Of a DNA stretch of 64,000 nt, positions 27,310-34,263 are shown one piece after another. The stretch spans positions 1-64,000 of the forward strand of contig NZ_JACJSJ010000020.1 of assembly GCF_014698115.1 (NCBI RefSeq). Direction: 5' to 3'. The notes beneath the pieces are model-generated. The model had not been told where the DNA came from. It saw only the letters and a list, made by a program, of their open reading frames with translations, and did not search any database. Numbering within the stretch: the first letter of the stretch is position 1; every line of letters begins with the position of its first letter. The translations under genes were made by a program, and so were the position numbers. The stretch comes from Nostoc sp. FACHB-973. GTDB lineage: Bacteria > Cyanobacteriota > Cyanobacteriia > Cyanobacteriales > Nostocaceae.

Positions 27310-28872
27310 TTAGGAATCGGAACTCTGTTTATCTTCAAAACGTCTGACGATGCGAGAAAGTTCCGCCTTTTCATCGATACTAACGCGAGTAGGAGCACCG
27401 CTAACAATCCGTTCGTAGTTCCGGAATGAATCTTTAATTTCTGGCCCATCGGCAGTGATATTATACTCGCGAATGCCCTTATCGTGCCAAGAGCCTCTCA
27501 TTTTAAATACGTTAATTGCCCGCGACATTTCTCCACGAATTTCTACGTACTGTAACATCAAAATTGTATCGGTAATCGTGGAAATATGAGAGTCTGTAAT
27601 GGAATGCGATCCCATAAATTGGTCGGTTGTGTTAGTAAAGAAACCCGTAATTTCTTCTTGTTTGGCATAACCTGTAACACCAATCACAAACTGCCGAAAT
27701 GCATTATTACTTACTCCCCTGGCTAGTGCTGAGAGTGAGTCAATGGCGATGCGAGCTGGTTTAAAAATCGCAATTTCCGATTTAATGATTTGTAAGTGGT
27801 CTTCTAAGCCAGTGGATTCCGGATAGGTACAAATTATTTTGAGTAAACCCTGATGTTCTAATTCCTCAAAATCAATTCCCCAAGAAGAAGCGTTACGAGA
27901 GAGTTGGGCGCGTGATTCTTCATAAGCAAATAAGATCGCCTGTTCTCCATTGAGACAGCCATCTTGAATAAACTTACTAACTAATAGGGTTTTGCCAGTA
28001 CCCGTGGCTCCTGTTGCTAAGATAATTGAATCTTTGAAGAAACCACCACCGCACATTTCATCTAATGTTTTGACACCAGAAGATACTCTGACATTAGAAG
28101 AACGTTGAGTCAAGCGCATTGCCCCCAATGGAAAAATGTTGACTCCTTCATTAGTAATTGTAAAGGGATACTCGCCTTTCATATGAGTTGTGCCGCGCAA
28201 TTTGAGAATTTCAATTGTGCGACGGCGGCGTTCTCCTTCTAAAACGTTGCGAACAATTACAACATTATCGGAAACAAATTCTTCGACTCCAAAAGATGCA
28301 ACAGGGCCATATTCTTCGCTGCGTTCAGTGGTAATAACAGTGGTGACACTCAGTTGTTTGAGACGTGCTACCAAGCGAAAAATTTCCCGCCGCACGACTC
28401 CCATTGCTTCATACTGTTGAAACACCGCTGTGATTGAGTCTATGGAAACTCGTTTGGCTTTATATTTACGAATAGCATATTGCAAGCGCTCAATCAGGGC
28501 AGAAAGGTCAAAATTCCCAACGATATCTTGTCCTTCTGGATCGGGAGATGCATCGAGAATAAATAACTTGCCTTCTTCAATTAAGCGTGGCAAGTTCCAC
28601 CCAAAAATATGAGCGTTTTTAATAATATCACTGGGCGATTCTTCAAAGGTGACAAATACTCCTGATTCGTCAAAGTAGGTAATACCGTTATAAAGAAACT
28701 GAAGAGATAATAAAGTTTTTCCCGTGCCTGACGTGCCACTAATCAAGGTAGTTCTACTAATGGGTAATCCACCATGACTAATGTCGTCAAACCCCTCAAT
28801 CATCGTGCGAATTTTTTCTACGCCCCCAATTAACGGCGGTTTTTTTGGTTCTCTTTGCTCGTTTTGACTCAT
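27310..28872 (-). CDS. kaiC: Circadian clock protein KaiC
   Basis: This 520-residue double RecA-like ATPase, autokinase and autophosphatase is the core of the cyanobacterial oscillator. CI domain: Walker A GTSGTGKT (46-53) and catalytic EE at 77-78. CII domain: Walker A GATGTGKT (288-295) and catalytic EE near 318-319. The phosphorylation pair is S431-T432 in DSHISTITDT, with T426 also present, exactly at the numbering of Synechococcus KaiC, which supports the ATG at 28872. The C-terminal tail SRIVRRFEDKQSSDS is the KaiA-binding segment. It lies 454 bp downstream of kaiB, a longer gap than usual, and 104 bp upstream of the hgdD-like gene. Confidence 0.97.
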   Translation of the reverse strand: MSQNEQREPKKPPLIGGVEKIRTMIEGFDDISHGGLPISRTTLISGTSGTGKTLLSLQFLYNGITYFDESGVFVTFEESPSDIIKNAHIFGWNLPRLIEEGKLFILDASPDPEGQDIVGNFDLSALIERLQYAIRKYKAKRVSIDSITAVFQQYEAMGVVRREIFRLVARLKQLSVTTVITTERSEEYGPVASFGVEEFVSDNVVIVRNVLEGERRRRTIEILKLRGTTHMKGEYPFTITNEGVNIFPLGAMRLTQRSSNVRVSSGVKTLDEMCGGGFFKDSIILATGATGTGKTLLVSKFIQDGCLNGEQAILFAYEESRAQLSRNASSWGIDFEELEHQGLLKIICTYPESTGLEDHLQIIKSEIAIFKPARIAIDSLSALARGVSNNAFRQFVIGVTGYAKQEEITGFFTNTTDQFMGSHSITDSHISTITDTILMLQYVEIRGEMSRAINVFKMRGSWHDKGIREYNITADGPEIKDSFRNYERIVSGAPTRVSIDEKAELSRIVRRFEDKQSSDS

Positions 28873-29326: not shown

Positions 29327-29641
29327 TTATTCGGTAAAGTCTTCTTCACTTAATTCCTCATAAAGTAAATCTAATCCAATTAATACTCGTTCTCTATCTG
29401 AAAGATCGCCGATAATTTTGCGAACTGGTGGAGGCAAAATTTTAGACAATGTTGGCGTTGCCAATATTTTATCTTCTTCGGCGAGTTGCGGGCTTTTCAG
29501 GACATCGATCACTTTTAACGCATAAACACCTTCAAACTCCTGTTCTAAAATATTTTTGAGTGTTTTTAATGCCCGTACTGAATTAGGCGTGTTCCCTGCT
29601 ACATAAAGCTTGAGAACGTAGGTCTTTCTGGCTTTATTCAT
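29327..29641 (-). CDS. kaiB: Circadian clock protein KaiB
   Basis: This 104-residue fold-switching, thioredoxin-like protein binds phosphorylated KaiC and sequesters KaiA, driving the dephosphorylation phase. The sequence [20 protein letters not shown]..., [40 protein letters not shown] and GLDLLYEE is diagnostic. The ATG at 29641 gives the standard KaiB length; the longer frame adds 17 unlikely residues. It lies 105 bp downstream of kaiA on the same strand. Confidence 0.97.
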
Positions 29642-29746: not shown

Positions 29747-30328
29747 TTATTTAGAAATCGAAGATCTATAGACTTCGCACAAATGAGCGAGGATATCTAT
29801 CAACGTCAGACGGTAATCGAGTAAAGTTTCATCACTCCTTCCTTCTAATTTTAGCTGTTTGGAAAATTCATCAATTACTTCCATGTGAATTTCGATAATT
29901 TGGGGCACAGGAATATTAGCATAAAATATAGTGTTGATAAATTTATCAATTTTTTCTTTAAGGGTTTTATCTGTGGTAAAATAATCTATAAGAATATCGC
30001 TGTAATCTAATTTCAACTGGTTTAATAATTCTTGACGTTCTCCTAGAGTCATCTCCTGGAAATGCTGTTGCCTTTTTTGCGAGTAACTAGCAAACACATA
30101 AAAATGCTTGTCATTATCTGGTTCATTTGGGTGGCGTTGCAACCAATGTTGTGAAGAGTTGATTGTTCCAGAGGTAGTTACAGCAACAGGTCGATAGCAA
30201 AATTGGCCAATTTTACCGGAAATTAAATTATATATCCACGCAACTACACCATTTTGGTTGGCTAAATCAACTGGATTCTTTAAATATTTGTTAACATCAC
30301 GTTGCAAAATCAATATAGGTAATAACAT
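29747..30328 (-). CDS. kaiA: Circadian clock protein KaiA, shortened form
   Basis: This 193-residue protein has the complete C-terminal KaiA domain (about 75-190: FQEMTLGERQELLNQL, FVNT-like FINTIFYANIPVPQIIEIHM, EGRSDETLLDYRLTLIDILA), the four-helix dimerising part that stimulates KaiC phosphorylation. Unicellular cyanobacteria have about 284-300 residues with an N-terminal pseudo-receiver; Nostocales have shortened forms. The first 75 residues here (MLLPILILQRDVNK...) match only the last part of a pseudo-receiver. The ATG immediately follows a TAA in the same frame, and the upstream frame is open for another 63 codons (see next entry). First gene of the kai cluster. Confidence 0.93.
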   Translation of the reverse strand: MLLPILILQRDVNKYLKNPVDLANQNGVVAWIYNLISGKIGQFCYRPVAVTTSGTINSSQHWLQRHPNEPDNDKHFYVFASYSQKRQQHFQEMTLGERQELLNQLKLDYSDILIDYFTTDKTLKEKIDKFINTIFYANIPVPQIIEIHMEVIDEFSKQLKLEGRSDETLLDYRLTLIDILAHLCEVYRSSISK

Positions 30329-30331
30329 TTA

Positions 30332-30520
30332 TTGTCTATCTATCTCCTTGATCGACTTGACCAAGAAGCGTGGGCTAATAATTGTGGCAAACGCTTCTAG
30401 GGTAATACTGGGTGTGCAGTAAAGTTGTGGTTCCACCCCAAAATAACGCTCTGTGTCAACAGATAGTTCTAGCCACTCAACAACCTGGTGCAGCGACTGA
30501 GTGGTAGGACTGAGTAGGTT
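30332..30520 (-). pseudogene. Open stretch in frame with kaiA, possible fossil of its N-terminal domain
   Basis: 63 sense codons, bounded by TAA on both sides, sit directly before kaiA in the same frame; no ATG is present. The translation looks protein-like (QSLHQVVEWLELSVDTERYF, GVEPQLYCTPSITLEAFATI, RFLVKSIKEIDRQ). By eye it can be aligned in register with the Synechococcus KaiA pseudo-receiver: PQLYCTPSITLEAFA against QLQVCESGEMLLEYA, and KEIDRQ-stop-MLLPILILQRD against QQLCFEGVVVPAIVVGDRD, with about 14 residues (around DCLIL) missing. This alignment is weak and is inference. Alternatives: a small upstream gene with an unusual start, or chance. Confidence 0.35.
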
Positions 30521-30987
30521 TTAGATGAGGTATGTATCGCCAAAAAAATATTATTTGCATATGCATATCTATGTATACAGATAGATAGACTTTTTTATTT
30601 TGCTCCTTGATAAGATACTTAAACGAACTTAAAGGATTGTCGCATTCTAAATCATTATAATTCCTCAAGGTTCTAAAGCGAATCTTTGGAGCCATAATTG
30701 TTTTAGCCGTGGCTATCGATGAGGAGTTTAAATACCAGTAAGACACTGGTGAGGCTATTTACTAGAAACGAGGAGCGGCAAAAAGAAACGTTGCCTCTCT
30801 GTTAAAGGTCGGACGCCAGCAGGTGTCCGTGAGTGCAAGTCCCATTGTTTTAATGGCGTTGAATATCGTAACCAAAATTGCTTATATGAGTCTTCTTAGA
30901 GGATATGGCTTCAGGCGCAAAGAACATCGGCAGTTGGCAGATGAGAATGCCGGAGTTTTCCGCAGGAAGAATGACCCCCAAAGCCTT

Positions 30988-33900
30988 ATGTCAATGCTAG
31001 ATTACCCGCTTTATGACTTTCAAGCAACCGTACCTAGCTGCCCCCAAACAAGTACTCTGGCGGTGGTGCTGGAGATTTTTGAGAAAGAGCAGTGCGATCG
31101 CTTGGTAGTACTTAATCAACAGCAAGAGCCCGTCGGATTGCTGTACTCTGCCCGTTTAATCCAAAAATTATTAGGCCATAGTGACGATAAAAATTTAAAT
31201 TTACAGCAATCACTTTCCGTCTGGGATCAAGCTCTAATCGATCCAATACAGACAATACCAGTTTCTGAGCGCGTAGAGCAATTTAGCTGGCGTTTGTCTG
31301 AACAACTTGCCCAAAAACAGCAAAATTTGGATTGGGCGTTGATTGACTCCGACGGTAAATATTTGGGGCTAGTGGATACTTCAAGCCTGTTGCGATCGCT
31401 CGCTAAGGAAAAAATGGCTGGCTCCCTCAATTCTGATGCTGTACAAACTCACTCCCAACCGCAGACGCCAAATCAACCCCAGCCATCGGTACAAAAACCA
31501 TTGGTGAAGTTGCTGGAAAGACTGCCTTGGCCTTTGATGTTGGAAACGGGTAATGGCGAGGTGGTAGCCCAAAATCCAGCTTGGTGGCAACAATTAGGAA
31601 TTTTAAAAGACCCAGAAGGAGTCAGGCGTCAGGTAGAGGCAATACTTACCCCCTTCCGAGCCAAGAAAGCAGAATACGTTAAGCAACGAGGAATCAAAGT
31701 TCATCCCAATGGTGGTGAAGAACAACCAACGCCACGGTTGTTGGTTAAAAGTGAACCAGGCTTGTCTAGTCTCAACGACCTCACAGAAGCACATACATCC
31801 ACAGAAACTACATCCAGTCGCTGCTTTTTGGATGCTCAACTAGGTACTTGTACTTGCGTTGTGGAAGTGCAAAATGGTCAGGAACGAATCTGGCAATTTG
31901 CCAAAATTCCATTAGATAGTCCAGAACTGAAAGTCATGGGTGCTGAATCAGAGATTCCACTCAGCACTGATTTGTGGTTGGTTTTAGCGACTGATGTCAC
32001 TGAACAGCAGCAGCTATGCAAAGAATTAGCAGCCAAGAATGCCGATTTAATTCAACTAAATCGCTTGAAAGATGAGTTTTTAGCTTGTATTAGTCATGAA
32101 CTGAAAACTCCCCTCACTGCCGTTTTGGGATTATCACGATTGCTAGTAGATCAGCAATTGGGAGAACTTAACGAGCGTCAAGCTCGTTATGCGGGACTGA
32201 TTCATCAAAGCGGACGCCATCTGATGAGTGTGGTCAATGATATCTTAGATTTGACCAGGATGGAGACAGGACAAATGGATCTAACACTAGCCCCAGTCAA
32301 AATTCGGGCTGTGTGCGATCGCGCTTTATCCGAAGTCAAAGCCATTCACACTCAAAGCACCAAAGTCACAGTCGCGTCCCCAACTTCAAATACCCGTTCC
32401 TCTGCTCCCCAATTCAGCCTCTGTATTGAACCAGGTCTAGACCAAATTGTTGCAGATGAATTACGCCTGCGTCAGATGCTCATACATCTACTTTCCAACG
32501 CCTTCAAATTCACTGAAATATCAGGCGAAATTGGGCTGCGGGTGAGTCGTTGGGAAGGATGGATTGCCTTTACAGTTTGGGACACAGGCATTGGTATTCC
32601 TGAACACCAGCAACATTTAATATTTCAAAAATTCCAACAACTAGAAAATCCCCTCACCCGTCAGTTTGAAGGCACTGGTTTGGGGCTGGTATTAACTCGC
32701 GCCCTGGCTCGGCTGCACGGAGGAGATGTCAGCTTTTTATCTCGTGAAGGTAAAGGTAGCCAGTTCACACTGCTGCTACCGCCCAGTCCTCCAAAAGCAG
32801 GTTTTTCAGAGCCAGATATCGAAACTAGAGAAGACAGCCAAAAACGACACCAACAAACACGAGAAATTCTCCCAGCAGGTCGTCAGCATGTCACTAATTC
32901 TACACAGTATCATGCCGCTAGTTCCCAACGGCTGGTTTTGGTAGTGGAAGCAGTAGCCCGATATATTGAAGATTTGACCGAACAACTCAAAAGTGTAGGA
33001 TATCGCGTAGTGATTGCGCGATCGGGAACAGAAGCAGTAGAAAAAGCTCGACGCTTGCAACCAATAGCGATATTTCTCAATCCCTTGCTACCCTTGCTCT
33101 CCGGCTGGGATGTACTGACTTTACTTAAATCTGACGCCGCAACTCGTCATATATCTGTAATTCTGACAGCAACGGCGGCCGAAAAAGAGCAAGCATTTGC
33201 CAACCGAGCCGATGGTTTCTTAAGCTTGCCAGTAGAACATCAGGTCTTAGCACCACTCCTAGAAAAATTATGTACTGTACAAGGAGTTTTGCCGCTAGGG
33301 TCAGACAATAACGCCAGTCTCCCAATTCAAACGCCACTGCGAATTCTCAGGTTAGTGAATCCTGAGTTTGAATCAGTCAGTCCCCACTCCTCCCTGCGAG
33401 AACATCGGGTGATTGAAGTCGATGACCTAGATCAGGCAGAACTCTTGGCGCGGGTGTGGCAATTTGATGTAATTTTGCTAGATGTAGAGACTAGTACCGC
33501 CCAAACTTATTTGCAACAACTCATCCAACACCCACGTTTAGCAGCCATACCGTTGGTTACTTGCGATGTTGCAACTACACTAAAAGCCTCACAAATACCA
33601 GGGTTATCTGTATTTCCTTACTTAACACCATTTGGAAAAGACGCCAGCACTCCCACGGAGAAAACAGATGCCTTACTATCAGTATTGCAAATTGCTTCTG
33701 GTGTTTGCTGCCCTCCCAACATTTTGGTAGTGGATTTGGCTATGCTGCGTGATTTACCACAGGTAAGACGCAAGCAAGTCAAAGGCGATCGCACTGAAAA
33801 CAATTGTTCAATCAGTAGTGAAACTGCCGAACGGGGGTCTGAGTGGTTCCAAGCTTTAATTCAGTACCTACAAACAGCAGGCTTCAAAGCAGCGATGAGT

Positions 33901-34263
33901 CCCTGTTGGGCAGAAGTGTTACAACAAATTCGTCATCAAAGCGTTGACTTGTTATTAATTTGCTTAGGAGAATCAGCTATCCATAAAGACGTACTCAAAG
34001 CCTTGAAAACCTTGGGAGATTCGCCTTTGAAGTTACCACCAATTTTAGTACTCAACCAGCCATTGAATCGCCCGGAAAGTATTTCCCAGCCTGGGGTGTC
34101 TGACAAGGGAATTCACAAGCCCAGGAAGAATGGGTTGGAATCGGTGGAAACTATCGTCAGTGCGATCGCTACCCAGATATTACCGCGATCCATATCAATG
34201 GAAGATTTGTTAAACCAGATTAATCAAGCTTTAGCTATCAACAGTCAAAATGAAAAATGCTAA
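30988..34263 (+). CDS. CBS-domain hybrid histidine kinase with degenerate receivers
   Basis: A large cytosolic hybrid of about 1091 residues from the ATG at 30988 (the ATG at 30994 is equally possible; the GTG at 30823 would add an unconvincing leader). Order: CBS pair (about 10-140; CPQTSTLAVVLEIFEKEQCD), a PAS-like region, DHp with acceptor His in FLACISHELKTPLTAV, HATPase with HLLSNAFKFTE, DTGIGIPE and GTGLGLVLTRAL, then three receiver-like domains. Receiver 1 has Asn where the phospho-Asp should be (IFLNPLLP), receiver 2 keeps Asp (VILLDVE), receiver 3 lacks it (LLLICLGES). It diverges from kaiA, about 660 bp apart. Its location and pseudo-receivers recall CikA-type clock kinases, but GAF is absent; a clock role is inference. 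Confidence 0.85.
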   Translation: MSMLDYPLYDFQATVPSCPQTSTLAVVLEIFEKEQCDRLVVLNQQQEPVGLLYSARLIQKLLGHSDDKNLNLQQSLSVWDQALIDPIQTIPVSERVEQFSWRLSEQLAQKQQNLDWALIDSDGKYLGLVDTSSLLRSLAKEKMAGSLNSDAVQTHSQPQTPNQPQPSVQKPLVKLLERLPWPLMLETGNGEVVAQNPAWWQQLGILKDPEGVRRQVEAILTPFRAKKAEYVKQRGIKVHPNGGEEQPTPRLLVKSEPGLSSLNDLTEAHTSTETTSSRCFLDAQLGTCTCVVEVQNGQERIWQFAKIPLDSPELKVMGAESEIPLSTDLWLVLATDVTEQQQLCKELAAKNADLIQLNRLKDEFLACISHELKTPLTAVLGLSRLLVDQQLGELNERQARYAGLIHQSGRHLMSVVNDILDLTRMETGQMDLTLAPVKIRAVCDRALSEVKAIHTQSTKVTVASPTSNTRSSAPQFSLCIEPGLDQIVADELRLRQMLIHLLSNAFKFTEISGEIGLRVSRWEGWIAFTVWDTGIGIPEHQQHLIFQKFQQLENPLTRQFEGTGLGLVLTRALARLHGGDVSFLSREGKGSQFTLLLPPSPPKAGFSEPDIETREDSQKRHQQTREILPAGRQHVTNSTQYHAASSQRLVLVVEAVARYIEDLTEQLKSVGYRVVIARSGTEAVEKARRLQPIAIFLNPLLPLLSGWDVLTLLKSDAATRHISVILTATAAEKEQAFANRADGFLSLPVEHQVLAPLLEKLCTVQGVLPLGSDNNASLPIQTPLRILRLVNPEFESVSPHSSLREHRVIEVDDLDQAELLARVWQFDVILLDVETSTAQTYLQQLIQHPRLAAIPLVTCDVATTLKASQIPGLSVFPYLTPFGKDASTPTEKTDALLSVLQIASGVCCPPNILVVDLAMLRDLPQVRRKQVKGDRTENNCSISSETAERGSEWFQALIQYLQTAGFKAAMSPCWAEVLQQIRHQSVDLLLICLGESAIHKDVLKALKTLGDSPLKLPPILVLNQPLNRPESISQPGVSDKGIHKPRKNGLESVETIVSAIATQILPRSISMEDLLNQINQALAINSQNEKC

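Follow-up and report, generated by a model that had tools for sequence, protein, structure and literature searches.

We find that the 193-residue KaiA encoded in the stretch of Nostoc sp. FACHB-973 DNA analyzed here (64,000 nt, hereafter the window) begins in the middle of the pseudo-receiver (PsR), with a start codon just before the LLP strand, because residues ~1–51 match the second PsR half of long KaiA proteins collinearly. A start at this position makes the locus an intermediate of N-terminal KaiA loss, evident from the protein itself. This part of an earlier note on the same DNA stands, while its reading of the 63 open codons directly upstream as a recognizable fossil of the lost PsR does not. 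We put at about 0.78 the probability that these codons are a piece of untranslated leader open by chance and that KaiA was truncated stepwise, with the second PsR half kept as a tail. This reading builds on what the data show directly, i.e. the homology of the tail, its relaxed constraint, the relics found in other genera, and the failure of profiles to match the 63 codons locally. Transcription of the leader, and a start move rather than a deletion as the first truncation step, are what we infer beyond these data.

The features referred to below are:

27310..28872, minus strand: kaiC, 3′ of kaiB (ORF table)
29327..29641, minus strand: kaiB, 3′ of kaiA, with its ATG at 29641 (ORF table)
29747..30328, minus strand: kaiA, 193 aa, with the KaiA C-terminal domain PF07688 at residues 79–192 (E 3e-43)
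30176..30328, minus strand: remnant of the second PsR half, from strand LLPxxI to the last helix (kaiA codons 1–51), still coding, with relaxed selection (hhalign, dN/dS)
30329..30331, minus strand: stop codon TAA abutting the kaiA ATG (sequence)
30332..30520, minus strand: 63 open codons, a piece of the kaiA leader without sign of coding (profiles, codon positions, codon usage, relatives)
30334..30345, minus strand: 3′ arm AGATAGATAGAC of a predicted 12-bp pairing in the leader RNA, adjoining purines of possible ribosome binding
30579..30590, minus strand: 5′ arm GTCTATCTATCT of the same predicted pairing (folding prediction)
30591..30749, minus strand: promoter-like block 5′ of kaiA, highly conserved (diversity in Nostoc, nhmmer)
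30608..30603, minus strand: AAGGAG, in the promoter-like block
30659..30654, minus strand: TATAAT, within an invariant 20-base stretch of the promoter-like block

The N-terminal tail of KaiA

The gene at 30328..29747 belongs to KaiA by its C-terminal domain, which scores 147.3 bits against a curated cut-off of 22.2 for PF07688. The 2 genes that follow are presumably kaiB and kaiC, names we assign from the kaiABC operon order. On the other side, a divergent gene for a hybrid histidine kinase (30823–34263; CBS, HisKA, HATPase, and receiver domains) has its intergenic region in common with kaiA.

Profile alignment with long KaiA proteins, one of the checks proposed in the earlier note, succeeds for the N-terminus of KaiA itself. 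When the N-termini of 75 KaiA proteins of ~200 aa are compared with 50 long KaiA using hhalign, the score is 32.9 (P = 1.7e-5, probability 79%), against a maximum of 17.8 in 100 column shuffles and 11.3 for the reversed profile. The homology holds separately for Nostoc alone (32.3) and for other genera alone (31.4), and an initial set of long KaiA gave 29.3 (P = 1.1e-4, probability 57%; maximum of 13.5 in 60 shuffles). The match is single and collinear, and runs from the LLP strand into the last PsR helix. Codons 1–51 can as such be assigned to the second PsR half by their profile similarity to long KaiA, so that the missing first half must once have lain upstream of those residues. Among the matches listed from a single-sequence hmmsearch with the long-KaiA profile, none to the LLP start of the tail is significant.

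The tail evolves differently from the clock domain, with a dN/dS of 0.51 over kaiA codons 2–72 vs 0.14 over codons 73–193 (32 Nostoc sequences), which points to relaxed selection on the tail. AlphaFold2 gives no confident receiver-like fold for codons 1–51 (pLDDT <50 over residues 1–86), though half of the domain would not be expected to adopt the receiver fold.

KaiA is present in 139 of the 140 genomes of the family search, and the open frames among the 139 best matches fall into 69 of 188–212 aa and 70 of 163 aa or less (hand count). An intact or less decayed first PsR half is not found in these relatives: no open frame exceeds 212 aa among the best matches of the 139 family genomes, or 138 aa in 15 genomes of f18, another family. 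In the KaiA-core tree (167 rows, few columns, 87 of 157 inner branches unresolved), a supported branch has long KaiA on one side. Left out were L001, which duplicates the window, L009, whose locus meets a contig end and holds no kaiA, and, from the tree, L063 and L066 of other families (broken frame or contig end). On this poorly resolved tree the ~200-aa label needs 8 changes, at least 3 of them forced by supported branches, and the second truncation step thus probably happened several times.

Relics of the tail lie upstream of kaiA in 10 of 32 loci with a short KaiA (28 from Nostocaceae and 4 from f18, with L118 set aside for its open 200-aa frame). These score 13.3 to 71.7 bits, compared with 6.0 for the best of 10 blockwise shuffle sets and 2.5 for the reverse strand, while the remaining 22 loci have nothing above 6 bits upstream of kaiA. 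All 10 (L097, L098, L102, L106, L120, L124, L125, L129, L130, and L136) come from Nostocaceae genera other than that of the window, and each is interrupted by stops or shifts frame ahead of the KaiA core. True fossils of the second PsR half thus exist, one loss step later than the locus studied here. The loss of the KaiA sensor half can be traced stepwise, from the long protein through the half-PsR form, as here, to a short form with broken relics upstream, and this series allows the remaining clock role of the half domain to be tested in heterocyst-forming cyanobacteria.

The 63 open codons and the kaiA leader

As the earlier note had reported, 63 sense codons (30520..30332, minus strand) lie in frame with kaiA and directly 5′ of it, separated by TAA at 30331..30329 and bounded upstream by TAA at 30523..30521. 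The run contains no in-frame ATG, and an in-frame GTG leaves its last 35 codons. Its opening is not clearly more than chance, i.e. ~3% by composition (0.029 at 45% GC and 0.039 at 48% GC; the run itself has 46.6%). Codon usage scores −0.02, where the 33 coding ORFs of the window have a minimum of 0.016 and a mean of 0.141, and the run ranks 11th of 65, itself counted, among the intergenic open stretches of at least 45 codons in the window.

Searches with tblastn match the 63 codons in 33 of 59 genomes, the window's own among them. All 33 come from the same genus (33 of its 35 searched members), and none of 24 genomes from other families gives a match. Within a set of 75 leaders, weak matches (E ≤ 1e-3) occur in 9 of 42 loci from other Nostocaceae genera. 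The matching DNA lies directly 5′ of a 192–193-aa kaiA in all loci from L002 to L031 except L009, whose kaiA is missing at a contig end. The upstream regions of relatives, to which the earlier note had also pointed, do not preserve the frame: of the 33 Nostoc loci, just 2 have the full opening, namely L002 (which is the window) and L003, with the next longest reaching 45 (L004) and 41 codons (L005), the best match is interrupted by a stop in 22 of 33 genomes, and the similar peptide beside kaiA is out of frame with the gene in 25 of 33 loci (hand count).

Diversity at the 3 codon positions is 0.160/0.218/0.161 over the 63 codons in the 33 Nostoc loci, compared with 0.088/0.056/0.224 over kaiA codons 73–193 and 0.173/0.195/0.225 over codons 1–72. 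The run thus has no third-position excess, and codon-level conservation is absent. In 3 sister pairs, with few changes, dN is about equal to dS, and no relevant match is found in Pfam, NCBIfam, PDB sequences, or plasmid DNA. Given the diversity pattern, the dN and dS values, and the lack of a Pfam, NCBIfam, or PDB match, we see no sign of protein-level conservation of the 63 codons in the sequences of any relative, and the fossil claim thereby fails on the refuting condition set in the earlier note itself. They are most likely an ordinary stretch of non-coding leader DNA.

The alignment with the N-terminal domain of Synechococcus KaiA that had been made by eye is likewise not recovered by profile methods. 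Aligned with hhalign to the first PsR half, the profile of the 63 codons scores 10.6 against 30 long KaiA and 10.3 against 50, values reached by 37 of 150 and 34 of 100 shuffles, respectively. In hmmsearch, translated leaders have a mean best score of −0.28 against the first PsR half (10 shuffles, −0.53 to −1.11; reverse strand, −1.21), an excess that is not convincing given the related rows.

The register-fixed score is a point in favor of the earlier note, as an open hint. Over the last 16 codons before LLP, the window scores −7.6 bits, while 43 control gene starts of the window average −23.1 (sd 8.1) and 2 of them score as high; with 21 and 29 codons the corresponding counts are 0 and 3 of 43. 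Mean 16-codon scores are −6.0 in Nostoc (n = 33) and −17.0 in other genera (n = 42). In other genera, 13 to 15 of 42 loci lie above the 90th percentile of the controls. Among the loci listed, L006 (+0.3), L140 (+8.9), and L141 (+0.9) have positive values, but the means stay negative. In a 17-codon version, the predicted register ranks on average among the top 16% of its leader, and for the window among the top 3%. In L006, the register that best fits the PsR reads the homologous DNA in another frame than the window does. In other genera, the codons leading up to the start often read Y-K-Q-stop-M-LLP (Y in 20, K in 22, Q in 12, and the stop in 39 of 42 loci), where the long-KaiA consensus at the corresponding place is Y-E-Q-G-T-LLP. 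Part of the excess stems from the start region, whose Y-K-Q-stop resembles Y-E-Q-G; we take this as a possibility rather than a result, and the 63 codons may have a weak hidden relationship to the PsR.

The 63 codons sit between kaiA and the promoter-like block (30749..30591), which is nearly invariant among Nostoc. Its TATAAT is a candidate −10 box, and a consensus promoter scan did not select it. Using nhmmer, the block is found in 103 of the 104 Nostocaceae loci examined (all except L076), and f18 gives weak hits at 4 of 13 loci. None of 50 long-KaiA loci yields it at E ≤ 0.01 (best 0.23), so it cannot be shown to have preceded a full-length gene. The block end lies a median of 278 nt from the kaiA ATG in Nostoc (33 loci) and 268 nt in other genera (41 loci). 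In 49 long KaiA, the likely start lies a median of 74 codons (222 nt) before LLP, which is near the leader length, not equal to it.

We also considered a constant distance from the block to the end of KaiA, whatever the length of the protein. This was rejected: 810–880 nt is seen in 55 of 75 Nostocaceae loci with a ~200-aa KaiA and in just 6 of 28 with a short KaiA, which slightly reduces the likelihood that the leader is former PsR coding DNA.

Some Nostoc strains carry ~90 to 220 nt of extra leader DNA (L017, L018, L019, L022, L023, L028, L031, L071, and L093), perhaps small mobile repeats. A stop codon (TAA or TAG) immediately before the kaiA ATG is maintained across Nostocaceae though the upstream frame is not, being present in 72 of 75 loci with a ~200-aa KaiA and in 69 of 74 of an overlapping set of named loci; it may serve as start context or as a block to read-in. 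In a Mojavia/Calothrix-like group (L132, L135, L229, and L246), this stop is lost, and the kaiA frame stays open for ~17 codons upstream.

Origin of the leader and rival explanations

Under the preferred reading, an untranslated leader of ~320 nt would run from the kai promoter to the kaiA start, with chance leaving the 63 codons free of stops here and in a sister strain. At the base of Nostocaceae or earlier, translation would have come to begin directly ahead of the LLP strand, at a start that either moved there or newly arose, and the C-terminal clock domain would have kept the second PsR half as an N-terminal tail under weak constraint. Several other lineages of the family would later have shifted the start further downstream and so lost the tail, of which broken relics remain.

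It seems distinctly unlikely to us that the first PsR half instead survives in the 63 codons as a genuine fossil that can still be read. They do occupy the place directly before the retained half, on the right strand, and both the register-specific scores above control gene starts and the Y-K-Q-stop pattern of other genera would fit. As a recognizable PsR fossil they were nevertheless rejected for the missing local profile signal and codon-position pattern, the stops and frame changes among relatives, a best-scoring frame that varies by strain, and the rarity of the full opening; in addition, passages of PMC8113500 date the truncation to ~1.5 billion years, an age at which a readable neutral relic is unlikely. 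A looser version is rather unlikely, in which the leader before kaiA in Nostocaceae once encoded the first PsR half and KaiA was truncated by two relocations of the start that each left the old coding DNA in place. Of the first half, Y-K-Q-stop before M-LLP alone would still be recognizable, because those codons became the new translation start region.

We consider it highly improbable that the 63 codons, or the last 35 from the in-frame GTG, encode a small expressed protein coupled to kaiA through TAA-ATG: the stop right before the ATG is widespread and the frame is open in both the window and its sister L003, but the stops and frame changes in most Nostoc relatives, the absence of a third-position excess, the similar dN and dS, and the lack of a family match all argue against it. 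A leader that acts as a structured regulatory RNA controlling kaiA translation is unlikely. Predicted folding is strong in the window (z = −3.22, with none of 100 shuffles as stable, and the 12-bp pairing beside the start) and in the close strains L172, L173, and L176 (z = −2.6 to −3.3). Over 24 leaders, however, the mean z is just −1.26, with several near or above zero (including Nostoc L178 and L190), a two-sided (compensatory) change supports 1 of 26 consensus pairs, and no Rfam family matches, and the predicted pairing is not general among relatives.

Comparison with known KaiA proteins

Truncated KaiA classes have already been published (PMC5520375; PMC8113500). Three KaiA lengths are described in passages of the former (PMC5520375), while passages of the latter give single-domain KaiA of Chroococcidiopsidales and Nostocales as mostly 89–202 aa, with an N-terminal domain that is missing or truncated and an origin ~1.5 billion years ago (PMC8113500). 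The short Anabaena KaiA is functional according to passages of PMC8064755. In searches of the main texts of open-access papers, we found no report of the half-PsR boundary or the upstream relics.

The window KaiA falls in the same protein class as the ~200-aa KaiA of Nostocales, with a truncated N-terminus and an intact C-terminal clock domain. Passages of these papers speak of an N-terminal region that is shortened or truncated (PMC5520375; PMC8113500), whereas for the window KaiA we set the boundary at the LLP strand and assign the tail to the second PsR half. The ~100-aa KaiA of PDB 1r5q (102 aa) has the same C-terminal domain as the window KaiA (E 2.5e-45). This chain, which we take to be Anabaena KaiA, is without the tail that the window KaiA has, and the broken tail relics occur upstream of kaiA in 10 of the 32 short-KaiA loci examined. 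Full-length KaiA is represented by PDB 1r8j and 4g86, both presumably from Synechococcus elongatus. Residues 166–281 of 4g86 match residues 77–192 of the window KaiA, and compared with these full-length proteins, the first PsR half is missing in the window, while the tail is detectable by profile comparison only.
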